A DNA stretch of 64,000 nucleotides from NCBI GenBank assembly GCA_026388185.1, contig JAPLKG010000004.1, positions 6,323-70,322 on the forward strand. Direction: 5' to 3'. Made by a program: the position numbers and the translations under genes. The DNA comes from Candidatus Eisenbacteria bacterium (lineage in GTDB: Bacteria > Eisenbacteria > RBG-16-71-46 > JAFGJU01). Below, in pieces: positions 22,124 to 29,182 of the stretch; the stretch's first letter is position 1, and each line of letters starts with the position of its first letter. The notes beneath the pieces are model-generated. The model saw only the letters and a list, made by a program, of their open reading frames with translations. It was not told the origin of the DNA and did no database searches.

Positions 22124-22192
22124 CATCCCTCACCCAGTCTTTCGAAGCCGCTCTCCTCTCTATCCTCCCTGTACACAACTTCCTTGTGTTTG

Positions 22193-24316
22193 GTGAGACT
22201 CAACGATAAACTCGACTCCGTGGCAGAAAACGAGTACGTACAAGTAGCCTTTCCAATACCAATTCTCGACACCTTCACTTACATCGTGCCTGAGCACCTT
22301 AGGGGCAAGGTTGTGCCGGGTTCTCACATCACAGCCTTTCTCGGCAGGCGCAGGCTCTCCGGATTTGTCGTCGGCACCGAACCGCGCAGTGAGCTCAAAA
22401 GCGTGAGACCGATCGAATCGCTCGTAAGGCCGGAGCCCGCCATCGACGCTACCACGCTCGAGCTTGCAGGAAAGGTTGCGGACTACTATCTGTGCCCGTT
22501 GGGAGAGATTCTGGCCGCCGCGTATCCCGCCCACGCCGACAAGGGTTTGCGTACTCAGGCCAAAGGGGAAGGAGCGCCTGGCGACGAGACTGTCGCCGGG
22601 GCGATCAGCGGGATCGAGGTGGGGCGCAGGATGGGGACAGTCAGCGGGACGACAGTCGGGCGTAGGGTCGCGGTTTCCTCCAAAGACTTCCCGCGCGACC
22701 ACGATATGGAATCGGATTTGGCGACATATTTTAAGCCACTCCTCGACGCCTCCGGACGAGGAGCACATCGCGTCTTTCTCCTCACTTTGCCAGACCGAGT
22801 TCGAGAGAGAATGTATCCCTTCTTAGTCAGTCAGGTCAGACAGGCCGGTGGAAGTGTGATCTTTCTGGTACCGGAGATCTCTGCCTCCGGTGACCTGGTG
22901 GAGCTCTTGAAAGAGCGCTTCGGGGACGAAGTGGCGCTCTTCCACAGTAGGCTCAAAATCTCGGAGAGAAAGGCAATCTGGGAGAATACTCGCTCCGGCA
23001 TGCTGAGAGTTCTAATCGGAACACGCTCGGCAGTCTTTCTTCCCGCTCAAGACCTCAGGCTTATTGTTGTTGAAGACGAGCATGCTGAGCCGTTCAAGCA
23101 GGAAGAAACGCCGCGCTACAACGCGAGAGACGTGGCCATTATGAGAAGCCGCCTCGCCGGAATACCTCTGTTGCTGGCTTCCGCCACGCCTTCCGTTGAG
23201 AGTTTCTGGGCCGTCAGGCAAGGCGAGTTTGAGCTTCTCGGCGGTGCACCTCTCAAGGCGACCCAGCCAGGAATCAACGTCGTTGACATGAGGAACAGGG
23301 AGAACGTGATTCCCCAATCGGAGGAGCTTTCCGTGCCTCTCATTTCGGCAATGGAGAAAGCGCTCGAAGCCCGCAAGCGAGTCCTGCTTTTCTTGAATCG
23401 GCGGGGGTTCCACAGGTGGGTGCAGTGCCAGGAATGCGGATTCCTGGAAGTCTGTCCGCGTTGCGAGCTTCCTCTCATCTTTCACTCTGACACCAAGAAG
23501 ATGGCTTGCCACCACTGCTCCCACGAGATGGAAGCACCGTCCTCTTGCGGAAAATGCGGCGGCACCCGCTTTCGATACGTCGGGGCAGGCGTGGAAAAAG
23601 TGCAGACCAGACTCAAGAGATTCTTCCCCGACGCCAAAGTGGCGAGGATCGATCTTGACTCTGCAAGAACCAGAGCCGAAGCAGTTCGGATCGCCGGGAA
23701 TTTCTCGGGAGGCGAGCTCGACATTCTCATCGGAACGACGATGGTGACCAAGGGGCTGGATCTGGGCGAGATCTCTCTTGCGGGGGTGATTCACGCGGAG
23801 GCGCAGCTCAACTTGCCCGATTTCAGGTCGGGAGAAAGGGCCTTTCAGCTTCTCTCGGACGTTGTGTCTTTGGTAGGAGACACATCCGGCGAGGTCATCA
23901 TCCAGACTTTCAACCCCGACCATCACAGTGTGCGGGCGATATCGCAGCACGAGCCCGGCCTTTTCTACGAACAAGAGTTGAAAGAGCGAGAAGAGCTTGG
24001 CTACCCCCCCTTCTCCACGTTGATTGATTTCCACGTGAGTGGTCCCAAGGAGCCGCAAGTCGTGAAAGTAGTGAAGCAGATGAGCACTCGCGTCGCGTCT
24101 GTCTGCGACAAGGCCGGGGAGGCGATTCACGTCTTGGGGCCGTCTCCTGCAGTTCCCGCCAGGCTCAAGGGACGCTTCCGCTGGCACATGAGTATGAGGG
24201 GCCAAGCGCGGGATGACGTCGTCGATGCGGCGAAGGAAATCCTGTCGGAGTTCGGTGGAAAGCATGAGGTAGCAGGAGTTACCATAAGTGTAGACGTGGA
24301 CCCGGTGGGGAGTTAG
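22193..24316 (+). CDS. priA: PriA-like primosomal protein N' lacking helicase ATPase motifs
   Basis: About 707 residues with the PriA layout: N-terminal 3'-DNA-binding domain (VAFPIPILDTFTYIVP), a low-complexity linker, two helicase lobes, an eight-cysteine zinc region (CQECG...CPRC...CHHCS...CGKCGG) and the C-terminal domain ending VDVDPVGS. Key ATPase motifs are altered: motif I (normally GVTGSGKTEVY) reads LTLPDRVRERMY at ~198-208, motif II DEEH is EDEH at 294-297, and motif VI (QVAGRAGR) reads DVVSLVGD at 556-563. The protein should therefore not hydrolyse ATP but may still bind forks and load partners. Actinobacteria are known to have comparable helicase-dead PriA proteins. The frame is continuous, so this is not a frameshift. 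Start is uncertain among TTG 22184, GTG 22193 and GTG 22220; none has a good ribosome-binding site. Confidence 0.88.
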   Translation: MRLNDKLDSVAENEYVQVAFPIPILDTFTYIVPEHLRGKVVPGSHITAFLGRRRLSGFVVGTEPRSELKSVRPIESLVRPEPAIDATTLELAGKVADYYLCPLGEILAAAYPAHADKGLRTQAKGEGAPGDETVAGAISGIEVGRRMGTVSGTTVGRRVAVSSKDFPRDHDMESDLATYFKPLLDASGRGAHRVFLLTLPDRVRERMYPFLVSQVRQAGGSVIFLVPEISASGDLVELLKERFGDEVALFHSRLKISERKAIWENTRSGMLRVLIGTRSAVFLPAQDLRLIVVEDEHAEPFKQEETPRYNARDVAIMRSRLAGIPLLLASATPSVESFWAVRQGEFELLGGAPLKATQPGINVVDMRNRENVIPQSEELSVPLISAMEKALEARKRVLLFLNRRGFHRWVQCQECGFLEVCPRCELPLIFHSDTKKMACHHCSHEMEAPSSCGKCGGTRFRYVGAGVEKVQTRLKRFFPDAKVARIDLDSARTRAEAVRIAGNFSGGELDILIGTTMVTKGLDLGEISLAGVIHAEAQLNLPDFRSGERAFQLLSDVVSLVGDTSGEVIIQTFNPDHHSVRAISQHEPGLFYEQELKEREELGYPPFSTLIDFHVSGPKEPQVVKVVKQMSTRVASVCDKAGEAIHVLGPSPAVPARLKGRFRWHMSMRGQARDDVVDAAKEILSEFGGKHEVAGVTISVDVDPVGS

Positions 24317-24350: not shown

Positions 24351-24396
24351 ATAGCGATTTCTTTTCGTGCATCACCCTTGCGGCTGGCGCCGCCGG

Positions 24397-25101
24397 ATGA
24401 GCTTTAGAGAGTGGCTTCCCTGGGTCAGGTGGTCAAGAAAATTGGTTACGCTTGAACAAGTCAGGCTATATCCCACAGTGAGGGCCTTGATCGAGAAGGC
24501 CGACAAGCAACTGGGTGTAATAGGTTACACCGAGCACGGCGAACGGCATGCAGGCCTCGTTGCCAATATCTCGTCCAACATTCTCAAGCGACTGGGACGG
24601 CCTGAGCGCGTGGCAGAACTCGCTTCCGTCGCCGGTTATCTGCACGACATCGGCAACGTCATCAATCGGCAATATCACGCCCAATCAGGTGCAGTCATAG
24701 CGTTTACTGTCCTGAGAGAACTCGACATGCCCATCGACGAAGTGGCGGAGATCATCGCGGCGATAGGCAACCACCACGAGGAGCAGGGCGAATCGGTCAG
24801 CGACATAAGTGCCGCGATCATCCTCGCAGACAAGAGCGACGTCCACCGGACGCGGGTGCGAGCCCCCGGAACGATCCTACTTGATATCCACGACAGGGTG
24901 AATTACGCCGCGAAGAACTCTTTTTTGAGGGTTCATGAAAACAAGAAGCTGATTTCTCTCGAGGTCACGATTGACACCTCGATTTCCCAGGTGATGGAGT
25001 ATTTCGAAATTTTCCTTTCCCGTATGTTGGTGTCTCGAAAAGCCGCCAATTTTCTCTCTTGCTCTTTCGAGCTCATCATTAACGACAACAAGATGTTGTA
25101 G
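24397..25101 (+). CDS. HD-domain metal-dependent phosphohydrolase
   Basis: A 234-residue protein with an HD fold: HGERHAGLVANI supplies the first His, YLHDIGN the HD pair (83-84), and NHHEEQG and ILADKSDVHR the remaining ligands. The C-terminal ~70 residues form a separate alpha/beta part. Proteins of this family occur in many bacteria and archaea; the substrate is unknown, with nucleotides or cyclic nucleotides as candidates. ATG at 24397 is preferred because the product then begins at the conserved SFREWLPWVRW segment; GTG at 24367 would add ten residues. Confidence 0.8.
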   Translation: MSFREWLPWVRWSRKLVTLEQVRLYPTVRALIEKADKQLGVIGYTEHGERHAGLVANISSNILKRLGRPERVAELASVAGYLHDIGNVINRQYHAQSGAVIAFTVLRELDMPIDEVAEIIAAIGNHHEEQGESVSDISAAIILADKSDVHRTRVRAPGTILLDIHDRVNYAAKNSFLRVHENKKLISLEVTIDTSISQVMEYFEIFLSRMLVSRKAANFLSCSFELIINDNKML

Positions 25102-25215: not shown

Positions 25216-26577
25216 ATGAAAGCGATTCTCAAATCCATCGTGGCGGTAATTGCCTTTTCTCTTGCGGCGACCGGGACTCTGATCCTGAGCGGGTGTGGGC
25301 AGAATCCTCATCTCTCGGGAGGCAGGCTTTACCTGAGTCAAAAGATTTACCCGAAGGCCGTAAGAGAGCTGGAACTGGCGGTGCAGGAAGAACCGAAGAA
25401 CGGACTTGCTCATCTCGAGTTGGCAAGGGCCTACGCCGAGCTCGACTCGACAAAGAAGGCCGGACTGCACTTCGACGAAGCCGCTCAAGTTGAGCCCAAG
25501 CGCAAGAAGGACTCAGACATCAACAGGAAGCACTACGCGATTCTGCATTTCAATGAAGGCTTGAGGCTGTCCCAACAGGAACAGAAGTTCGACGAGGCCG
25601 CGGTGGAGTTCGAAAAGGCGATAGATCTTGACGCAAGCGATGCGGGCACTTACATGAATCTGGGTTTCGCTTACGGTCAAATTGGCAGGCGCGAGGACGC
25701 TCATGCTGCGTACGAGAAGGCCATCGTGCTGTACGAGAAGGTGATACAACTGAACGCCGCCGATCCGATCGCTTACAAGAATCTGGGTCTGGCATATGCA
25801 CAACTCGGCCGGCACGATGAAGCCAGTGCCATGTTCGAGAAGGCCGCCGCCCTTGCACCGACAGACGAAAAAGTGAAGAAGAACCTCGCGACAGTCTACA
25901 TAGAGCGCGGCAACGACAACTTCAAGAAGGAGAACTACGCGGAGGCTATCAAGTCCTACGAGAAGGCCCTGGGACTCGGAAGTGACAGCGTCAACGTCAT
26001 GTTCCAGCTCGGGAACTGCTATTTCCAGCAAGCTGCTGCAGAGACGAGCGCGGCTACCGCAAATGCCCTGTTTGAGAAATCCGGGAGCTTCTACGAGAAC
26101 GTGCTGAGAAAGTCACCCGATGACATCGACGCCATGACCAATCTGGGCATGGTCGAATTCAGACTTGACAGAATGGCTGAGGCGATTCAGTTGTTGCGCA
26201 ACGTTGAAGAGCGAGACCCAAAGGCTCACGAAGTCCACAAGATACTGGGGGGCGCCTACGCCAGGACCGGAGAGAAGGAAATGGCGGTGACCGAGATTGT
26301 CTTCTCGAAAGCCCTTGATCCCAACAGGGGAAAGCGCACGAGCGATTTGGACAGCTGGCTTTCTCCGGATGGTTTGAAGGCGAGGTATGGCGACACCTCA
26401 GAGGTCGCGAAAGTCATTCAGGAGAGAGGTGTTCCCCAAGAGGTTTATGTTTACGAGGAGTCGGGCAGCCTGGTGGAAACCTGGTTCTATTGGTCACAGG
26501 GGAAGGCCATGTATTTTGTGAACGGCAGGATTCCTCCCAAGAGCGAGTTCACTTTCTTTCCCATTGTAGAGAAGTGA
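25216..26577 (+). CDS. TPR-repeat lipoprotein
   Basis: A 453-residue exported protein with a type II signal peptide (lipobox LSGC, lipidated Cys27) and multiple tetratricopeptide repeats recognisable by the W/Y-L-G-Y...A..A/YEKAI spacing, for example YMNLGFAYGQIGRREDAHAAYEK... and AYKNLGLAYAQLGRHDEAS. Repeats extend to about residue 380. The last ~70 residues are different: a small beta-rich end (EVYVYEESGSLVETWFYWSQG) as in outer-membrane assembly-type lipoproteins. GGAGGAG lies just upstream of the ATG. The KARI-like gene starts one base after its stop, so both share one transcript. Likely a scaffold at the envelope; partner unknown. Confidence 0.88.
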   Translation: MKAILKSIVAVIAFSLAATGTLILSGCGQNPHLSGGRLYLSQKIYPKAVRELELAVQEEPKNGLAHLELARAYAELDSTKKAGLHFDEAAQVEPKRKKDSDINRKHYAILHFNEGLRLSQQEQKFDEAAVEFEKAIDLDASDAGTYMNLGFAYGQIGRREDAHAAYEKAIVLYEKVIQLNAADPIAYKNLGLAYAQLGRHDEASAMFEKAAALAPTDEKVKKNLATVYIERGNDNFKKENYAEAIKSYEKALGLGSDSVNVMFQLGNCYFQQAAAETSAATANALFEKSGSFYENVLRKSPDDIDAMTNLGMVEFRLDRMAEAIQLLRNVEERDPKAHEVHKILGGAYARTGEKEMAVTEIVFSKALDPNRGKRTSDLDSWLSPDGLKARYGDTSEVAKVIQERGVPQEVYVYEESGSLVETWFYWSQGKAMYFVNGRIPPKSEFTFFPIVEK

Positions 26578-26578
26578 C

Positions 26579-27562
26579 GTGGCCAAGTTCTACCTAGACG
26601 CTGACTGCGATAGATCCCTGCTCGAGGGCAAGACGGTCGCGGTTGTCGGTTACGGCAGCCAGGGGCGCGCTCAGACGCTGAATCTTCGTGACAGCGGGCA
26701 GACGGTGAGAGTGGGGCTGAGAGAAGGGAGCGCTTCTCGCGCGAAAGCAAGAAGCGAGAGTGTCGATGTAGCGACTATCGAAGAGGCCGTCAGGGACGCG
26801 GATGTGGTCTCCCTCCTCATCCCGGATGAGGTGCACGGACCGTCTTTTAAAGAGCGCATAGCGCCGCACATGAAGGAAGGCGCCGCCCTGTGTCTGGCCC
26901 ACGGGCTCAGCGTTCACTTCGGGCTTTTCGAACCCACGAAGAACATAGACGTAATCATGGTTGCGCCTTTGGGAGCAGGAAATCTCCTCAGGCGCCTTTA
27001 CCAAGAAAACAAGGGTCTCCCCAGCTACGTCGCTGTACACCAGGACCGCAGCGGAGAAGCTCTCAAGATTGCCCTCGCTTATGCATCCTTGGCGGGTTGT
27101 GCAAGACCGGGGATGATCGAGACGACCTTCAAGGAAGAAACCGAGGTGGATCTTTTTGGCGAGCAGGCGGTTCTCTGCGGTGGGTTGAGCTTCCTGTTGC
27201 TTCGCGCATTTGACACCCTGGTGCACGCCGGTTATCAGCCTGAAGTGGCATACCTGGAGTGCATCAACCAGCTTAAGGCTTCGGCGGACTTGATGAGCCT
27301 TGTGGGGCTGGAAGGTCTCCCTGACAGCATAAGCAGCCCCGCACTCTACGGTATGCTGACCCGAGGAAAGCGCGTCATAGGGGAAGAGGCAAAGCAGGCA
27401 ATGGGGGAGTTGCTGCGCGAGATTCAATCGGGACAGTTTGTCAGGGAATGGATGAGAGAAGGAACGAGAGACAATCCCGGAATTCTGAAGTTGATCGAGG
27501 GATGGAAATCTCTCAAGATGCACGAGGTGGGTCGCAATCTCAGAAAGTTTACGAGACTCTGA
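26579..27562 (+). CDS. ilvC: Ketol-acid reductoisomerase-like protein with altered active site
   Basis: A 327-residue protein matching class I ketol-acid reductoisomerase (IlvC) over its whole length. The nucleotide-binding loop GYGSQGRAQTLNLRDSG, REGSASRAKA, HG at 108-109, metal ligands Asp191 and Glu195 in EETEVDLFGEQ, and Glu227 are kept. Three residues held nearly invariant in the family are changed: the catalytic Lys of APKGPGH is Leu131 and its His is Asn135 (APLGAGN), and the last metal-binding Glu is Gln231 (LECINQLK). It stands alone, with no ilvB, ilvD or leu genes around it. True branched-chain synthesis is thus doubtful; a reductase or altered-substrate role is possible. GTG start at 26579, one base after the lipoprotein stop. 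Confidence 0.85.
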   Translation: MAKFYLDADCDRSLLEGKTVAVVGYGSQGRAQTLNLRDSGQTVRVGLREGSASRAKARSESVDVATIEEAVRDADVVSLLIPDEVHGPSFKERIAPHMKEGAALCLAHGLSVHFGLFEPTKNIDVIMVAPLGAGNLLRRLYQENKGLPSYVAVHQDRSGEALKIALAYASLAGCARPGMIETTFKEETEVDLFGEQAVLCGGLSFLLLRAFDTLVHAGYQPEVAYLECINQLKASADLMSLVGLEGLPDSISSPALYGMLTRGKRVIGEEAKQAMGELLREIQSGQFVREWMREGTRDNPGILKLIEGWKSLKMHEVGRNLRKFTRL

Positions 27563-27575
27563 AGCCGACAGTGCG

Positions 27576-27597
27576 GCATGTTCGCGAGCGAACATGC
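27576..27597 (+). terminator. Stem-loop behind the KARI-like gene
   Basis: GCATGTTCG (27576-27584) and CGAACATGC (27589-27597) form a perfect 9-bp stem with a 4-base loop, 14 bases after the stop codon. No T-run follows. Its place between the stop and the rho promoter suggests transcript end protection or Rho-assisted termination. Confidence 0.5.
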
Positions 27598-27633: not shown

Positions 27634-27662
27634 TTGACAAGTCCATGTTTTCGCCTTAATAT
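27634..27662 (+). promoter_or_regulatory. Strong sigma70-type promoter of rho
   Basis: TTGACA (27634-27639), a 17-base spacer and TAATAT (27657-27662) give a near-consensus promoter. It is the best promoter in the window. It starts the long leader of rho and probably the whole rho-to-ispG block. Confidence 0.75.
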
Positions 27663-27934: not shown

Positions 27935-29182
27935 ATGGGCATCGCGGAAATGAAGGGCAAAACGGTTCCTGAGCTGGTCCAAGCAGCACAGGAGCTAAAC
28001 ATCGCTGGCGCCAGCGGAATGCGCAAGCAGGAACTCATGTTCAAGATTCTGGAGGCTCAGACCCAGAAGAACGGCTTGATTTTTGCCGAAGGCGTGCTTG
28101 AGATTCTGTCAGAAGGATACGGCTTCCTTAGGTCGCCAGACTACAACTACCTGCCTGGACCGGATGACATTTATGTCTCACCCTCACAGATAAAGAGGTT
28201 TGACTTGAGGACGGGTGACACCGTCTCCGGTCAGGTCAGACCTCCCAAGGATGGGGAGAGGTACTTTGCGTTGCTGCGCGTAGAGGCGGTGAATTTCGAG
28301 AGCCCCGAAGTTGCAAAGGAGAAGATTCTCTTTGACAACCTGACCCCTCTTTATCCTCAGGAGAAAATCCGGCTTGAGAACAAGAGCCGGGACATTTCAA
28401 CCAGGATAATGGACCTCTTGGCGCCGATAGGCAAAGGGCAGAGAGGTCTAATCGTTTCCCCGCCCAGAGCCGGGAAGACCATCCTTCTTCAAAAAATCGC
28501 CAACAGCGTTACCGAGAATCATCCCGAGATTATTCTCATCGTCCTGTTGATAGACGAGCGGCCCGAGGAAGTCACCGACATGGAACGTTCGGTGAACGGA
28601 GAGGTCGTCAGTTCGACGTTTGACGAACCGGCGGAACGTCACGTTCAAGTTGCGGAGATGGTTCTCGAGAAGGCGAAGCGTCTCGTCGAACACAAGAGAG
28701 ACGTCGTCGTTCTTCTGGACAGCATAACCAGACTGGCCAGGGCGCACAACACCGTGGTTCCTCACAGCGGAAAGATCTTGTCCGGTGGAGTCGATGCAAA
28801 CGCTCTGCAAAAACCCAAGAGATTTTTCGGCGCCGCGCGCAACATAGAAGACGGAGGGAGCCTCACAATTGTCGCCACGGCCCTGGTCGAAACGGGAAGC
28901 CGCATGGACGAGGTCATCTTCGAAGAATTCAAGGGCACGGGCAACATGGAACTCGTGCTCGACAGGCGTCTGAGCGACAAGAGAATATTCCCCGCCCTGG
29001 ATATCAACAAGTCCGGGACGAGGCACGAAGAGTTGCTGCTGTCACCGGAGGAACTGAACAAGATCTGGATATTGAGGAAGTTCCTCAACGAGCTTAACTC
29101 CGTTGAAGCGATGGAATTCCTCGTGGACAAGATGGGCCAGACAAAAACCAACAAGAAATTCCTTGAATCCATGAACACTTAG
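27935..29182 (+). CDS. rho: Transcription termination factor Rho
   Basis: A 415-residue hexameric RNA helicase. It has the N-terminal Rho-N helix bundle ([20 protein letters not shown]), the cold-shock-like RNA-binding domain ([20 protein letters not shown]), the P-loop [14 protein letters not shown], Walker [15 protein letters not shown] and the Q-loop and R-loop segments ([20 protein letters not shown]). Length is typical without the large insertions found in some phyla. GAGGAG lies about 10 bases upstream of the ATG. It is the first gene behind the strong promoter at 27634. Confidence 0.97.

Follow-up and report, generated by a model that had tools for sequence, protein, structure and literature searches.

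The active-site lysine of ketol-acid reductoisomerase (KARI, IlvC) serves the isomerase step of the enzyme, ketopantoate is similar to its natural 2-keto intermediate, and pyrroline-5-carboxylate is a side substrate of Streptomyces KARIs. KARI catalyzes a Mg-dependent alkyl shift followed by reduction with NAD(P)H; each activity can be assayed on its own, and the reductase takes various 2-keto acids (PMC5940873; PMC4353338). In class I KARIs, D191 and E195 are the Mg(I) ligands and D191, E227, and E231 the Mg(II) ligands (PMC5940873). That IlvC can double as ketopantoate reductase is already known from Buchnera (PMC4306246), from B. subtilis (PMC11487621), and, as cited in a later paper, from C. 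glutamicum (Merkamm 2003, cited in PMC5414155). Streptomyces viridifaciens has a KARI paralogue, Svi2, that acts selectively on the valine precursor during valanimycin synthesis (PMC4353338). The open-licence papers searched contained no description of an isomerase-dead KARI that is fixed in a lineage lacking branched-chain amino acid (BCAA) synthesis.

The window analyzed here, a stretch of 64,000 nucleotides from a Candidatus Eisenbacteria genome, contains a KARI homologue with the following features:

26579 to 27562, plus strand: class I KARI homologue lacking the active-site lysine, predicted ketopantoate reductase (Pfam and NCBIfam matches, residue analysis, AlphaFold2)
26963 to 26980, plus strand: APLGAG, residues 129-134, the counterpart of canonical PKGPG, with Leu for Lys131 (alignments)
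27269 to 27271, plus strand: Gln231 codon; canonical KARIs have the Mg(II) ligand Glu here (Gln in all 23 aligned relatives)

The reading frame is intact, starts with GTG, and encodes 327 amino acids. Both KARI domains were matched over their full length in Pfam (KARI_N, 1.1e-59; KARI_C, 5.5e-42), and the protein scored above both NCBIfam ilvC cut-offs (NF004017, 407 bits with a cut-off of 336; TIGR00465, 348.5 with a cut-off of 226), so that standard pipelines would label it ilvC. TIGR00745 (PanE/ApbA) was not found among the NCBIfam matches at E <= 0.001. The closest PDB sequences were class I KARIs (E to 1e-115). An AlphaFold2 model (pLDDT 94) likewise had class I KARIs as its top PDB structure matches (TM up to 0.95), with identities of 41-49% among the matches listed. 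By sequence and by its full-length domains, the protein belongs to the class I KARI family.

The residue numbering of the window KARI equals the class I numbering of PMC5940873, and all Mg ligands are kept except E231. The lysine motif reads VAPLGAGN: besides Leu for Lys131, it has Ala for Pro and Asn for His. The C-terminal motif reads PEVAYLECINQLK, with Gln for Glu231, and the canonical TAEYG is replaced by SPALYG. Asp191, Glu195, Glu227, Ser252, His108, and the Rossmann motif are retained; Mg site I is complete and site II is altered by Gln231. An earlier note on this DNA had described PLGAGN in place of PKGPGH, a Gln for the last metal-binding Glu, and otherwise preserved metal ligands and nucleotide loop, and the alignments bore out this description throughout. 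The substitutions are not chance events, since they are shared by the closest relatives (L003, 66% identical to the window KARI, has PLGAG and Q231; the L004 fragment, 59% identical, has Q231) and by the whole phylum. Across 23 aligned rows of the phylum Q231, H108, D191, E195, E227, and S252 were invariant, and the phylum KARI alignment contained 39 invariant columns. Compared with class I IlvC (EC 1.1.1.86), the protein thus has the same fold, length, Rossmann motif, and D191/E195/E227/S252, but it lacks both the PKGPG lysine (Leu131) and a second complete Mg site, and its genome lacks the pathway context of ilvB and ilvD.

No second KARI or canonical ilvC was detected elsewhere in the window's genome, which is 97.86% complete, and no match to acetolactate synthase (TIGR00118, ilvB) was found there. 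In the phylum as a whole TIGR00118 exceeded its cut-off in 0/47 genomes, as opposed to 14/14 control genomes. Divergent AHAS-like TPP enzymes were found in G004, G013, and G016, all scoring below the AHAS cut-off. Dihydroxyacid dehydratase (ilvD) was absent from all eight phylum genomes tested, including the window's, and present in all 14 control genomes as well as in genome G194, which has a canonical KARI. The whole lineage appears to have lost valine/isoleucine synthesis yet kept one enzyme of the pathway. These data support the suggestion in the earlier note that the protein has changed chemistry or substrate, and the canonical ilvC that the note had proposed to look for was not found. 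They refute its description as a KARI paralogue, because the protein is the sole KARI of its genome and of nearly every related genome.

The KARI gene lies in a conserved string of genes, in which priA was used to locate the locus in relatives:

22184 to 24316, plus strand: priA (primosomal helicase), first gene of the conserved string (named from sequence; cluster across relatives)
24367 to 25101, plus strand: HD-domain-like protein, member of the conserved string (HD name by sequence inspection; clusters across relatives; relative in another phylum)
25216 to 26577, plus strand: TPR lipoprotein, conserved upstream neighbor (clusters; beside rho in KARI-less relatives too)
27935 to 29182, plus strand: rho (transcription terminator), conserved downstream neighbor (named from sequence; cluster across relatives)

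In the relatives examined, the gene order was priA, HD protein, TPR lipoprotein, and KARI, followed by rho in many. The operonic fusion of KARI to the lipoprotein claimed earlier turned out to be two separate, tightly coupled genes: the lipoprotein frame ends at 26577, 1 nt before the KARI start at 26579. The question whether the lipoprotein is always next door had a divided answer. It adjoins KARI in almost all relatives examined, and it also persists where KARI is missing, between priA and rho in G009 and in the f11 family genomes that have no KARI. The lipoprotein is therefore a syntenic neighbor and probably not a partner of KARI; an obligate partnership is ruled out by the KARI-less relatives that retain it at the locus. 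Many relatives share a WFYW-like segment at the C-terminus of the TPR lipoprotein (25216-26577), and the gene is kept at the priA-rho locus phylum-wide.

A convincing KARI was present in 32/47 phylum genomes, one in each apart from split fragments. Besides the window's genome, 31 phylum genomes thus had a KARI of the type without the lysine as their sole KARI, which rules out its restriction to the window's family. In a 33rd genome, G005, the contig breaks off within the gene, leaving its start downstream of priA and the TPR gene. The lysine was absent from every phylum KARI in which the site was covered, its place being taken by Leu, Thr, Ser, Ala, Val, Cys, or Tyr, and reading frames were intact in about 30 genomes from nine families. 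Outside the phylum, a domain-wide sample yielded KARIs from many other lineages, and the lysine was kept in 86/87 of those sampled (phylum member L169 is excluded from this count). A contig scan with the window protein as query returned lysine-bearing KARIs only. The single exception outside the phylum was G115, a 100% complete genome of a different phylum without ilvD, which has Met at this site. Its gene order (HD-TPR-KARI-rho-DUF1385-prfA) is that of the window, with a rho 77% identical, so loss of the lysine is not limited to one phylum. The 29 phylum KARIs and G115 were split from the other 86 sequences of a 116-sequence tree by a branch with 100/97 support; some members of the group are on long branches, among them G115, whose position inside the group is weakly placed. 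The G115 KARI (L205 / L265, G115:C8) has kept Glu231 and has the metal-site motifs DLFAEQ and PTLAY.

The phylum genomes have retained the pantothenate (vitamin B5) genes panB and panC. In the window's genome, the two adjoin each other (G000:C11), a gene resembling type III pantothenate kinase lies near them, and the KARI gene is not close to either. No panE above the curated cut-off was found in this genome, in families f1, f2, f3, and f4, or in nearly all of f10. In the KARI-less family f11, 6/9 genomes had panE and a seventh had a partial, lower-scoring match. For the 46 genomes compared, 26 had KARI only, six had both KARI and panE, 11 had panE only, and three had neither; hence 26/32 KARI carriers were without panE and most KARI-less genomes had it (the panE-positive calls of G011, G014, and G042 score under the family cut-off). 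Fisher's test gave p = 2e-4 with relatedness among the 46 genomes ignored, and a pairwise test on the tree was non-significant, as it has to be with just 4-5 independent KARI losses, a number at which an independent-pairs test cannot attain significance. All 26 high-quality genomes (>=90% complete, <=5% contaminated) had KARI or panE; the genomes with neither were G034 (89% complete), G043 (81%), and G045 (78%). The mutual exclusion is not strict, because six genomes carry both KARI and a panE-family protein. The f10 genome G034 (L259, G034:C86) has panB and panC but no detected panE, and at its locus the TPR gene is followed by the HU gene with no KARI between them. G016 has both a KARI without the lysine and a panB-panC pair; elsewhere in this genome (L269, G016:C128:1-4410), a second panB neighbors a panE and a gene for an AHAS-like TPP enzyme.

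We propose that the window protein is a reductase-only KARI that acts as ketopantoate reductase in place of the missing PanE, a reading to which we assign a probability of roughly 0.75 and which the earlier note had not put forward. The isomerase (alkyl-shift) half of KARI would have been lost and the NADPH-dependent 2-keto-acid reductase half kept. The residue pattern (lysine and one Mg(II) ligand gone, Mg(I) and cofactor sites intact) fits an enzyme confined to reduction, and the absence of Lys131 and Glu231 would abolish isomerization. The predicted substrate is ketopantoate: 2-ketopantoate from PanB would be reduced by KARI to pantoate, which would pass to PanC, and the ketoisovalerate used by PanB would stem from imported or degraded valine, not from de novo synthesis. 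Like the IlvCs of C. glutamicum, Buchnera, and B. subtilis, the protein would belong to the KARI family and supply pantoate in cells that lack PanE or in which PanE is redundant; unlike these bifunctional enzymes, which also serve BCAA synthesis, it is proposed to perform the reduction only. With PanE/ApbA (EC 1.1.1.169) it would share reaction and pathway position, and both belong to the 6PGDH superfamily, but it is of a different family, and its genome has no PanE. It would resemble Svi2 in being a KARI with a specialized role, but Svi2 has not been reported as isomerase-dead. As to its history, we lean towards an ancient, separate KARI subfamily spanning at least two phyla, which would have dropped the isomerase half after the loss of BCAA synthesis and become a dedicated ketopantoate reductase. 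If true, our proposal describes a half-enzyme occurring in nature, in which the two KARI steps are separated, and it supplies the step that coenzyme A synthesis lacks in a little-known lineage. The annotation is corrected as well: the profile models call the protein ilvC, and on a KARI without the lysine this label would wrongly attribute to the organisms one step in making valine and isoleucine.

A substrate other than ketopantoate is possible, and the protein could be a reductase for a different 2-keto acid or for pyrroline-5-carboxylate. Substrate preference is not readable from sequence, the KARI reductase is promiscuous (PMC4353338), and the six genomes with both KARI and a panE-family protein fit such a role. 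We nevertheless consider it unlikely, given the retention of panB and panC without panE and the presence of panE in most KARI-less genomes. Much less probable still is a working KARI that isomerizes without Lys131 in a valine/isoleucine pathway of otherwise unrecognized enzymes. The ilvC equivalog cut-offs are passed, and the divergent AHAS-like enzymes of three genomes, all below the AHAS cut-off, could belong to such a pathway; against this, sensitive profiles found no ilvB in the window's genome and no ilvD in eight phylum genomes, Lys131 and Glu231 are both gone, and many unrelated residues occupy position 131.

A non-catalytic or regulatory NADPH-binding protein acting with the TPR lipoprotein, a role the earlier note had entertained, is very unlikely. 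The lipoprotein adjoins KARI in nearly all carriers, including one in another phylum, but it stays between priA and rho in KARI-less genomes. The strict conservation of NADPH and Mg(I) residues, and the invariance of Glu227 and Ser252, disfavor a protein without catalysis, and the lipoprotein is predicted to be exported whereas KARIs would be cytosolic. That the gene is a decaying ilvC remnant in auxotrophs hardly deserves credence: the tested remainder of the BCAA pathway is gone and some members have long branches, but about 30 intact frames in nine families, the 39 invariant columns, and a well-formed predicted fold all argue against decay.

The interval between KARI and rho contains a promoter-like match:

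27634 to 27662, plus strand: sigma-70-like promoter match, TTGACA-17-TAATAT (weak)

One sigma-70-like match was found, with 1.6 expected by chance. Right after the KARI stop codon, a perfect inverted repeat, GCATGTTCGC-GA-GCGAACATGC, was read by eye at 27576-27597; no T run accompanies it. In f10 genomes (L118 and equivalents), a gene for an HU-like DNA-binding protein follows KARI and replaces rho.
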